Positions 15,693-18,904 of a DNA stretch of 64,000 nucleotides are shown piece by piece. The position numbers and the translations under genes were made by a program. The notes beneath the pieces are model-generated. The model saw only the letters and a program-made list of their open reading frames with translations. It ran no database searches and was not told the DNA's origin. The DNA lies in NCBI RefSeq assembly GCF_004022265.1, contig NZ_SAVB01000014.1, forward strand, positions 1 through 64,000. The letters run 5' to 3'. The DNA is from Paenirhodobacter ferrireducens. Lineage in GTDB: Bacteria; Pseudomonadota; Alphaproteobacteria; Rhodobacterales; Rhodobacteraceae. The first letter of the stretch is position 1. Each line of letters starts with the position of its first letter.

Positions 15693-16526
15693 ATGACCGA
15701 AGTTCAGTTCTTTACCGCCGATGACGGGGCGCGGATCGCCTATCGCGACGAGGGCGAGGGGGCGGCGGTGCTGGCTCTGGCGGGGCTCACGCGCACCGGA
15801 CGCGATTTCGACTATGCGATGCCGGCGCTGGCGGGCTGCCGGGTGATCCGGATGGATTACCGCGGCCGCGGCGACAGCGCCTGGACGGGCGCCGAAACCT
15901 ACACCGTGCCGCGCGAGGGGGCGGATGCGCTGGCACTGCTCGACCATCTCGGGCTGGCCTCGGCGGCGATCCTCGGCACCTCGCGGGGCGGGCTGATCGG
16001 CATGTATCTGGCCGCCGTCGCGAAGCCGCGCGTCACCGGGCTGTGCCTGAACGACGTCGGCCCGGCGCTGGAAAAGGACGGGCTGATGAAGATCTTCGCC
16101 TATATCGGCCGCAACCCGGTGGCGCAGACCTTCGGCGAGCTGGCGGCGAAACTGCCTTCGGTGATGGCCGGGTTCGAGGGCGTGCCGGCAAGCCGCTGGC
16201 GCGAGGAGGTCGAGCGCCATTACCTCGAGACGCCCGAGGGGGTGACGATCAACTATGACCCGGCGCTGCGCGATGCCTTCGTCTCGGCCTTCCCGGCCGA
16301 TGGCAGCGTGCCCGAGGCCTGGCCACTGTTCGACGCCTGCGAGGGGCTGCCGCTTGCGCTGATCCGCGGCGCGAATTCCGACCTGCTGGGTGCGGGGGCC
16401 GCGGCCGAGATGCGCCGCCGCCGCCCCGACATGATCTTTGCCGAGGTGCCGGGCCGCGCCCATATCCCCTTCCTCGACGAGCCCGAGGCGGTCGCGGTGC
16501 TCAGGGACTGGGCGGCGCGGCTGTGA
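15693..16526 (+). CDS. alpha/beta fold hydrolase
   Basis: The 277-residue protein has the alpha/beta hydrolase layout: an oxyanion region LAGLTRTGRDFDY, the nucleophile elbow GTSRGG (Ser in ILGTSRGGLIG), a late acid in RGANSDLLG and the catalytic His in RAHIPFLDEPEA. It is close in style to haloalkane dehalogenase/proline iminopeptidase-like enzymes, but the substrate is unknown. Its 3' end overlaps the convergent DUF1810 gene by 26 bp. Confidence 0.87.
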   Translation: MTEVQFFTADDGARIAYRDEGEGAAVLALAGLTRTGRDFDYAMPALAGCRVIRMDYRGRGDSAWTGAETYTVPREGADALALLDHLGLASAAILGTSRGGLIGMYLAAVAKPRVTGLCLNDVGPALEKDGLMKIFAYIGRNPVAQTFGELAAKLPSVMAGFEGVPASRWREEVERHYLETPEGVTINYDPALRDAFVSAFPADGSVPEAWPLFDACEGLPLALIRGANSDLLGAGAAAEMRRRRPDMIFAEVPGRAHIPFLDEPEAVAVLRDWAARL

Positions 16527-16929
16527 GTGCGGCGCGGGTGAGCGGGCAGCGCGCACCGGCATAGAAGGTATCGAGGAGGCGCGCGAAGACCGGCTCGCGC
16601 CCCTCCGCGGCCGCCTCGAAGAGCGTGGCGCAGGAGCGCAGCTTCAGCGCGTCGACGGGGCCCATGATGTCCTCGATCGGCGTGCCCGGGTGGGTGAGCA
16701 CCGCCTCGGCCGCCGCGATCAGGTTCGCGCGCAGGGTGGGATCGGCCAGATAGGCGCGCGCCTCGTCGAGATCGCGCAGCCCATACTCGATGGCCCGCGA
16801 CGAGCGGCCGAGGGCGGCGAGCTGTGGGAAGATCCACCAGATCCAGTGCGTGAGCTTCCGCCCCGCGCGGAGTTCGCGCAGGGCAATCGGCAGGTCACGG
16901 GATTGCGGGGCGTGGAAGCGGTCGGGCAT
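16501..16929 (-). CDS. DUF1810 family protein
   Basis: The 142-residue product shows the family signature ELRAGRKLTHWIWWIFPQ with the following GRSSRAIEYGL, then HPGTPIEDIMGPVDALKLRS. DUF1810 proteins are small, soluble and functionally unassigned; structures resemble a four-helix calpastatin-like fold. I chose MPDRFH at 16929; an ATG at 16953 is also in frame. It is the last normal-GC gene before the AT-rich segment at about 16.95-17.99 kb. Confidence 0.88.
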   Translation of the reverse strand: MPDRFHAPQSRDLPIALRELRAGRKLTHWIWWIFPQLAALGRSSRAIEYGLRDLDEARAYLADPTLRANLIAAAEAVLTHPGTPIEDIMGPVDALKLRSCATLFEAAAEGREPVFARLLDTFYAGARCPLTRAALTAAPPSP

Positions 16930-17008
16930 GGGGGCTGACTCAATTGGCTTCATATTTAAGGGGATATACAGCTACCCATTCCGTCCATGGTTAAACGGGG
17001 GCTGATGG

Positions 17009-17638
17009 TTAAGTGTTCCTTGGTGTTTTGAGATCCAGACTTCTTCCGGAGGGTGGCCCCTCATGCATTATCCTGTTTTCAATCATGTGGGACGCTTCTC
17101 TGAATAAAAAATAGAGGTCTTTTGATTCGGGAAGGTCTCTAATGATAGGGGAATCCCTCTGCATTATTTCCAAAAGATCGCGCAACTTCCTATGTGCGGA
17201 AATTTTTCGGGCTTTGCTATTTTCCTCCAGATCTCTGTTTATATCTAGGAGAACCTCAGATATCCACGGGGCGTCATCTCTGAAAAATCCCGCGAGCATG
17301 GGGAGGAATATTGATGAGCTCGCTTCGCTGTGTCCCAGCTCCATTATCCTAAACATCATTTTCGGATTCTGTCGAGGCCGTCTCGCTGAGTTGAGAGAGC
17401 CATCTTGTTGAGATAAGGAAATCTCGCGAAACTTGTTCTCCAAAGAGCGCACGGTTGCCACGAGCTCTTCCAGAACTTGGGACTGCGTCCTTTTGCTTTT
17501 TTCAGATGTTTCCTTTGCTGGGACTTTCTTTAGGTCGTCTTCGAATGTTGCCCACAAGGGGTCGAAACGCTTGCTGAGCACCTCGTCTGAAGTCGGATTA
17601 TCAGAGTGCTTATTGATTGATATTACCACCTCCCTCAT
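17009..17638 (-). CDS. C-terminal part of a split TIR-domain protein
   Basis: This 209-residue reading frame begins at an ATG that overlaps the stop codon of the TIR frame (ATGA). It contains a coiled-coil-like stretch (SQVLEELVATVRSLENKFRE, about residues 53-72) followed by a helical region to the end. Related full-length bacterial TIR proteins continue from the TIR domain straight into this kind of sequence, so I read it as the C-terminal half of one protein reached by a -1 shift near 17653. Base composition is clearly AT-rich relative to both flanks. It could alternatively be translated separately by coupling at the ATGA overlap. Confidence 0.7.
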   Translation of the reverse strand: MREVVISINKHSDNPTSDEVLSKRFDPLWATFEDDLKKVPAKETSEKSKRTQSQVLEELVATVRSLENKFREISLSQQDGSLNSARRPRQNPKMMFRIMELGHSEASSSIFLPMLAGFFRDDAPWISEVLLDINRDLEENSKARKISAHRKLRDLLEIMQRDSPIIRDLPESKDLYFLFREASHMIENRIMHEGPPSGRSLDLKTPRNT

Positions 17639-17988
17639 CGAGTCCTTTTCAAGTTTTTTGCTTGAAACTGAGCTAGAGGTCCGGAGATATCGCTGAAATC
17701 AAGGTCGAACAGGAGCGGGATAACTCGCGCATCTTGCATTGATTTTGAAAGTGCTCCCGACTCAAATAAGATCCAGTCCGCATTCAGATTTTCGGGTGTG
17801 ATGCAAATTATCCCAAAGTTAGCGGCTTCGAGCTCCCCTGCTACGGACTGGGCCCAACGTTCACCTGCAGAAATATCTTTGTCAGAAACCCATGGCTCAA
17901 TCCCTTCTAAGATGATTGGAAGCCAGTCTTTTAGTGCTGTTGCGACTGCTCTGCTGCGAGTGCCGCTCCAGCTGATAAATACTTTCAT
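17635..17988 (-). CDS. TIR-domain protein, N-terminal frame (candidate NADase)
   Basis: The 117-residue frame begins MKVFISWSGTRSRAVATAL, a bacterial TIR domain start (beta-A strand FISWSG), and includes CITPENLNADWILFESGAL. Glu76 there sits at the catalytic glutamate position of NAD-cleaving TIR domains. It stops six codons after the heptamer A AAA AAC (17659-17653). A -1 slip there continues into the frame at 17009-17638 and would give a 326-residue protein. It starts one base after the thyX stop codon with GGGGG five bases upstream, so translation may be coupled to thyX. AT-rich composition indicates horizontal acquisition. Bacterial TIR proteins often act in phage defence; that role is inferred here. 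Confidence 0.75.
   Translation of the reverse strand: MKVFISWSGTRSRAVATALKDWLPIILEGIEPWVSDKDISAGERWAQSVAGELEAANFGIICITPENLNADWILFESGALSKSMQDARVIPLLFDLDFSDISGPLAQFQAKNLKRTR
17653..17659 (-). promoter_or_regulatory. candidate -1 ribosomal frameshift heptamer A AAA AAC
   Basis: On the minus strand the TIR frame reads GCA AAA AAC, a canonical X XXY YYZ slippery sequence in the correct phase. Slipping back one base gives KN-LEKDSMREVV and joins the TIR domain to the downstream frame. I saw no Shine-Dalgarno stimulator upstream. A single lost A in a homopolymer (mutation or sequencing error) is the main alternative. Confidence 0.45.
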
Positions 17989-17989
17989 T

Positions 17990-18904
17990 TTACCCCCACA
18001 CCCCCACAAATTCCCGCCACTCGCCCTTGCTCATGCCGGACGTCTCCTGCGTCACCGCTTCCCCGGCCAGCCGGCGTTTCAGCACCTCGACCGCCTTGCC
18101 CGACAGGCTCACCCCGCCCAGACGGTAATCCTCGAAGGCCTCGTAGGCGCTCGGCACCCAGTCCTTGACGATCGCGCACATGGTCTCGGCATAGACCCGG
18201 ATCTCGTATTGCGCATGGGTATCGGCGCGCAGGCGCAGGAAGTGGAAGAGGTTGTGCAGGTCGATCTTCCAATACCACTGCGTGTAGATGTTCGCCGGCA
18301 GGTTCATCCGCGCAAGTTCGCGCGCAAGGCCCAGCTTGCCGGCCCCGGCGTCGGGCGTCAGCATGTCCTCGTAATGGTCATAGCTGCGCATCGCGTCCTC
18401 GCGCAGCAGGTCGAGCACGCGCGCGGCCTCGGCCCCTTCCAGCACCTGGCCGCGGCCCTGGTTGTTCACGGTGGACTGCGCGGCGAGCTGTTCGGGCGCG
18501 GGGATGTAGAACTCGCGGTCGAGGATCGAATAGCGCGCCGAATATTCGTTCACGTTGGCGGTGCGGTGGCGGATCCATTGCCGGGCGACGAAGACCGGCA
18601 GCTTGACGTGGAACTTGACCTCGCACATCTCGAAGGGGGTCGAGTGCCAGTGCCGCATCAGATAGCGGATCAGGCCGCGGTCGTCGCTGACCGCCTTGGT
18701 GCCGCGGCCGTAGCTGACGCGCGCCGCCTGACAGATTGCCGCGTCGTCGCCCATGTAGTCGATCACCCGCACGAGGCCGTGGTCGAGCACCGGATGCGCG
18801 GTGTAGAGATGCGCCTCCATCCCCGGGGCGGTGGCGCGCAGGGTGGGGGAGGCGGTGGCGCGCTGTGCGGCGATCTCGGCTTCCTGTTCGGGGGTGAGCG
18901 GCAT
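17990..18904 (-). CDS. thyX: flavin-dependent thymidylate synthase ThyX
   Basis: ThyX methylates dUMP to dTMP using methylene-tetrahydrofolate, FAD and NADPH. The 304-residue protein carries the signature [14 protein letters not shown], a match to the RHRxxSxxExSxRY motif with Ala-Asn-Val in place of the usual Ala-Ser region. It also has the C-terminal [20 protein letters not shown] segment with the flavin/dUMP arginines. Its length is normal. The gene ends at 17990, exactly where the AT-rich TIR segment begins. I see no thyA in this window. Confidence 0.94.

Follow-up and report, generated by a model that had tools for sequence, protein, structure and literature searches.

Chromosomal hotspots of anti-phage genes are a known kind of genomic site. 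Programmed frameshifts, for their part, are recognised by the conserved clusters in which they occur, and singletons are likely to represent indels or errors, according to the accessible part of the GeneTack study (PMC3711429). Bacterial ribosomes are less tolerant than eukaryotic ones of the re-pairing from AAC to AAA, yet A_AAA_AAC is a proven frameshift site, with no established stimulator, in one cluster of insertion sequences (IS) described in the accessible part of another study (PMC4066793), so that some slippage at A AAA AAC is conceivable. Insertions during transcription become more frequent as A and T runs grow longer, as reported in the excerpt available from a further study (PMC5574713), and a little slippage on an adenine run is therefore possible. 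A search of titles and the beginnings of abstracts in the open-licence literature returned no paper relating a TIR domain to a programmed frameshift.

The locus described here lies in the window, by which we mean the whole 64 kb stretch of DNA that was analysed, and consists of a TIR gene divided between two reading frames behind thyX (Table 1). The preliminary description stated that the TIR frame reads GCA AAA AAC and stops at the sixth codon after it, that a -1 slip could link it to a second frame, and that the start codon of the second frame overlaps the TIR stop as ATGA (17638-17635). These readings were confirmed on the minus strand: the heptamer is followed by five sense codons and then by TGA, and the second frame stays open upstream beyond the heptamer, so that a -1 slip would join the two frames.

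Table 1. Coordinates of the split TIR gene, its sequence features and its neighbours in the window.
Feature	Position	Strand	Remarks
TIR frame	17635..17988	-	117 codons + stop (117 aa); ATG at 17988, GCA AAA AAC at 17661-17653, stop TGA at 17637-17635; PF13676 TIR_2, PADLOC TIR-TM
A AAA AAC heptamer	17653..17659	-	In TIR frame, slippery phase; site of the length difference from the intact relative
7-bp perfect inverted repeat TTTCAAG/CTTGAAA	17647..17667	-	Loop CAAAAAA; fold not significant
ATGA overlap of TIR stop and possible restart codon	17635..17638	-	SD-like AAGGA just upstream, by eye
Second frame, C-terminal part	17009..17638	-	209 codons + stop (209 aa); ATG at 17638-17636, TAA at 17011-17009
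thyX (PF02511)	17990..18904	-	Directly upstream of TIR gene; stop just before TIR start
DUF1810 gene (PF08837)	16501..16953	-	Right-hand neighbour of cargo

Both frames belong to a single gene, since they match consecutive stretches of the PADLOC TIR-TM profile PDLC03016 (293 long): the TIR frame corresponds to profile positions 1-112 (E 1.5e-51) and the second frame to positions 112-252 (E 2.6e-07). The Pfam profile search placed TIR_2 (PF13676) on residues 3-114 of the TIR frame with 49.3 bits against a cut-off of 28 (E 8.7e-13), the match ending in this frame at profile position 109 of 122; the same kind of search matched no Pfam family in the second frame, and an NCBIfam search of the feature gave no match. 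Comparison with the PDB by sequence profile returned a single TIR chain, 7uxr (E 0.00043). TIR matches were present in 12 plasmid records (top identity 70%) and in four phage records (top identity 49.5%), and the exact 24-nt junction had no match in viral contigs. The split gene has a GC content of 47-48% against a background of roughly 64-74% and forms a 1-kb AT-rich stretch adjoining thyX. The glutamate of WILFESGAL (Glu76), which we take to be the catalytic residue, is invariant across 22 aligned relatives. The intact gene probably encodes a NAD-consuming defence protein composed of a TIR domain and a helical C-terminal part.

The only close copy found is that of Sinirhodobacter (now Paenirhodobacter) hankyongi BO-81 (Rhodobacterales; genome G046, locus L020), in which the TIR gene is syntenic behind thyX and forms one intact open frame of 326 codons. 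The DNA of the two loci is 96% identical over 1.8 kb, and the sole gap inside the gene falls in the adenine run. This alignment supports a length change in the run, which the preliminary description had offered as its fallback. As aligned, the neighbouring codons of the intact relative yield both the heptamer and the split through one length change, from which we infer that these need not be two coincident features. Substitutions between the window and G046 were distributed over the three codon positions as 1,0,11 and 4,4,17 in the two halves of the gene, with dN/dS values, from small counts, of 0.024 and 0.11 (0.113 for thyX). The substitutions at third codon positions in both halves suggest that the break is recent, or that the gene is still made. 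With just one further close copy known, how far the gene is conserved among its nearest kin is judged from a single genome.

Of 394 genomes searched in the family, 19 gave a match, mostly distant and including the window's own, and a search of the genus gave a match in two of 18 genomes, the window's own again being counted; from a scan of a genome collection the best 80 of 173 relatives were kept. The 99 loci in total included 93 with a TIR hit, which left 91 relatives after subtraction of the window's own locus and one duplicate. The TIR frame is open over at least 200 codons in 87 of these 91 relatives, and in 23 of the 24 that share at least 60% identity. The remaining four are L007, L010, L025 and L072: frames are shorter in L010 and L072, L007 (G070) is broken by an in-frame TGA, and L025 continues as unrelated sequence beyond codon 150.

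None of the 91 relatives carries A AAA AAC in slippery phase at this site, which was not placeable in four distant ones (hits ending before residue 105); adenine runs out of slippery phase occur at this place in L020, L037 and L039. The alignment of homologues that the preliminary description had proposed thus leaves the heptamer and the split conserved in 0/91 relatives. The co-located stop and start (ATGA), as would mark a translationally coupled pair, is not conserved either. In-phase copies of A AAA AAC or A AAA AAG are present elsewhere in the open TIR frame of nine of the 92 other rows, all of them without a split (at least 15 codons from the site in eight, about eight codons away in L051), so that its presence is in itself hardly informative. 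The window has a single AAAAAAC (0 on the plus strand, 1 on the minus strand), which is rare, but the gene that hosts it is AT-rich.

We consider it very likely that the split reflects a private length change in the adenine run, whether in the cell or in the assembly, and not a programmed site; private here means unique to the window's genome among the genomes compared. That this change sits in the living cell is probable. An ordinary single-frame TIR gene would have been broken by the change in length, and the heptamer would have arisen with it. Ribosomes would then stop after 117 codons and release a probably inactive product that ends ahead of the final TIR helix and has no C-terminal part, while a restart at ATGA may yield a little C-terminal protein. 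On this reading, accessory genes turn over quickly in the slot behind thyX, and one such cargo gene would only recently have ceased to function. The adenine run also lies in the loop of the 7-bp inverted repeat, and the repeat might favour length changes there; the fold of an 82-nt stretch spanning repeat and heptamer was not significant (z -1.07).

The effect of the break was considered on a structure model of the intact relative, made with 22 aligned relatives (mean pLDDT 77.4, pTM 0.49). The break falls at residue 112-113, ahead of a helix at residues 115-127 that we read as the last TIR helix; since it precedes this helix, the short product is probably an incomplete TIR, and a complete TIR fold was not recovered in the first frame. 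The part encoded by the second frame is mostly helical in the model. A Foldseek search found nothing at E 0.001 or below; its top matches were SPARTA TIR-APAZ chains, and bacterial TIR domains aligned over 131-146 columns.

That the adenine run was misread or misassembled, the gene being intact in the living cell, is a sub-case of the private length change and, in our estimate, an unlikely one. Homopolymer runs are classic sites of sequencing error, and both halves of the gene look constrained, as would fit a gene that is in truth unbroken. Against this, of about 95 predicted genes compared over 125.6 kb of this contig, the TIR gene is the only one whose frame is truly broken, so that frame errors are not common here, although a single one could still have occurred. 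In this screen, four of the 95 predicted G046:C49 genes with a match in G000:C5 were flagged as split, as were five of 94 in the reverse direction; substitutions by codon position gave a coding signal on both sides for the TIR gene only, and the other eight of the nine flags look like over-long starts or wrong-strand frames. An error-rich assembly was rejected on the same ground. A first crude list held 25 non-triplet indels within crude ORFs of the window comparison, three of which were inspected individually, the others being covered through the two-way gene screen and the codon-position counts.

Phase variation, in which a reversible adenine-run length would switch the gene on and off, has little to commend it. 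The two close copies do differ in length in precisely this run, but phase-variable tracts tend to be longer than this, and relatives beyond the pair formed by the window and L020 mostly have no adenine run.

Programmed -1 frameshifting at A AAA AAC, by which the preliminary description would have both a short TIR product and a full-length protein made, is very improbable. The heptamer stands in the right phase ahead of a long open -1 frame, and the low dN/dS, which derives from small counts, would also fit a gene that is still made by slippage. However, the close homologues are single-frame and have no in-phase heptamer at the site, whose conservation in none of the 91 relatives makes it a singleton of the sort that the accessible part of the GeneTack study regards as a likely indel or error (PMC3711429). 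No stimulator stands out: in three stretches the RNA 3' of the heptamer is no more stably folded than shuffled sequence (z +0.61, -0.18 and +1.03; non-pseudoknot folds), and no SD-like stretch was seen by eye 8-15 nt upstream of the heptamer. The short product, without the last TIR helix, would moreover be an incomplete TIR. Translational coupling at ATGA to make two separate proteins, as in a split TIR system, would fit the overlap and the SD-like AAGGA seen by eye, but is just as improbable, given that one long frame is kept in 87/91 relatives and that in the intact relative these letters simply read as codons within its one frame.

The more interesting result concerns the place in which the TIR gene lies: the site behind thyX is an apparent accessory-gene hotspot. 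We examined 84 thyX loci (L116-L131, L147-L174 and L205-L244), of which 16 are from the genus, 28 are additional top-scoring loci from the family and 40 were hand-chosen from a ranked list, none of these samples being random; four loci with fewer than 600 bases following were dropped, which left 80 usable. Cargo was scored where the next 600 bases were at least 10 GC points below thyX. By this measure AT-rich DNA follows thyX in 41/80 usable loci, with 28/40 in the first sample and 13/40 in the second (17/40 in an earlier count with rounded values and a slightly different thyX stretch), and varied accessory cargo thus occupies one conserved place, as in a defence hotspot. In the controls, AT-rich DNA was found at 0/44 positions upstream of thyX, 0/29 behind fabI and 0/30 before fabI; other gene ends were AT-rich in 2/89 cases on G000:C5 and 8/170 on G046:C49, thyX itself being included in both.

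A low-GC frame is present in 40 of the 41 cargo loci (for the window, the frame counted is the second half of the split gene) and is co-directional with thyX in 37; when the first possible start is taken, 13 of these 37 lie at offset -4 and overlap the thyX stop. The 40 cargo frames represent 37 protein families at E 1e-5, and the DNA directly behind thyX differs in almost every genome of the genus. In a tree of thyX from 40 loci, the presence of cargo switches 11 times, against 10.6 times with shuffled labels, and because it behaves about as shuffled labels do, cargo turnover appears to be fast; supported branches of the tree force at least five changes.

Comparison of the last 80 nt of thyX with up to 3 kb downstream revealed no att-like duplication at 55 loci (longest shared word 11 nt; 15 in a control stretch). 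On the right-hand side, homology resumes at the start of the DUF1810 gene in five genomes, of which two have the same cargo. Three genomes regain homology upstream of moaE, and a fourth (G396) was missed by the motif used; no right-end motif common to the cargo loci was seen by eye. The DUF1810 gene lies within 1.5 kb of thyX in five of the 16 genus loci with thyX. At L132-L146, the genus thyX and its cargo occur in more than one context, on a DUF1810/fabI side or on a moaE/formate-dehydrogenase side (the latter names assigned by eye). No description of a thyX-downstream hotspot was found by title and abstract beginning in the open-licence literature, nor does the available passage of PMC10732464 contain one.

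The content of the slot was assessed by Pfam and PADLOC searches with 25 cargo proteins, which are those of the 28 first-sample cargo loci minus two copies of the window gene and L173. Eleven score above the threshold of a Pfam family (TIR_2 and Fic twice each, GmrSD_N, HATPase_c, DUF3800, DUF6338, DUF2971, DUF4357 and Caps_synth), and of the 14 others four have sub-cut-off matches, one of them REase-like, and ten have none. PADLOC matched 34 families in the same 25 proteins, and among the 25 families listed are ThsB, NsnA, PD-T4-2_A, REase_II and the phage-defence-candidate families PDC-S14, PDC-S59, PDC-S31 and PDC-S23 (two members). Several cargo families appear defence-like by profile match, but Caps_synth is not a defence family and counts against a pure defence site, as do the 14 of 25 proteins that reach no Pfam cut-off. 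Small frames about 73 nt behind thyX in L173 and about 44 nt behind it in L228 resemble HicA-type toxins by eye.

Within the last 60 nt of thyX (17990-18049, minus strand in the window), TGGCGGGAGTTT and a G-rich, quadruplex-like tail are commoner in loci with cargo than in those without, kinship being ignored. Among the 73/80 rows with a recognisable WREF motif, the Phe codon of the motif is TTT in 38/40 cargo loci and in 17/33 loci without cargo (Fisher p 2e-5; kinship ignored), and the rest of thyX in the same rows, which is partial in the second sample, has TTC in 340/389 cases. A motif of four G runs is found in 18/41 cargo loci and 4/39 cargo-free loci (p 0.001; kinship ignored). An independent-pair test of the tail correlation gave the same direction, with five pairs on supported branches and a median p of 0.25. 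A simpler account of part of this pattern is selection for ribosome binding ahead of the next gene. It is conceivable, if somewhat doubtful, that in this family single-gene cassettes, largely of defence type, dock specifically at the 3' end of thyX and turn over so rapidly that their presence carries no phylogenetic signal, with TGGCGGGAGTTT and the G-rich tail at the thyX end being the recognised sequence or the left end of the cassette, and the window's TIR gene being a cassette that has just been broken. If one-gene cassettes generally dock at thyX across this family, candidate defence genes could be mined from thyX-downstream DNA, and the correlated thyX tail would provide a testable lead on the movement of small genes.

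For the split gene itself, the comparison indicates that a slippery heptamer misleads as a sign of programmed frameshifting when it comes with a private length change, and that the nearest syntenic relative settles most of the question. The window gene resembles the single-frame bacterial TIR proteins of about 320-335 aa (PF13676; PDLC03016) in its domain order, its MKVFISWSG start and its Glu76, and shares with L020 its place behind thyX, but differs from them in being split after residue 112. With dnaX and the IS-type -1 frameshift genes it has in common an X XXY YYZ heptamer in phase; unlike in those genes, this heptamer is not conserved, is accompanied by no stimulator that we found and would give an incomplete short product, and its sequence is a less favourable one in E. 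coli, going by the accessible part of the source. The thyX site differs from described hotspots of anti-phage genes in that no att-like repeat was found (55 loci) and in that it often receives a single small co-directional gene, behind or overlapping one housekeeping gene; it resembles them in holding varied, partly defence-like cargo at one conserved place.
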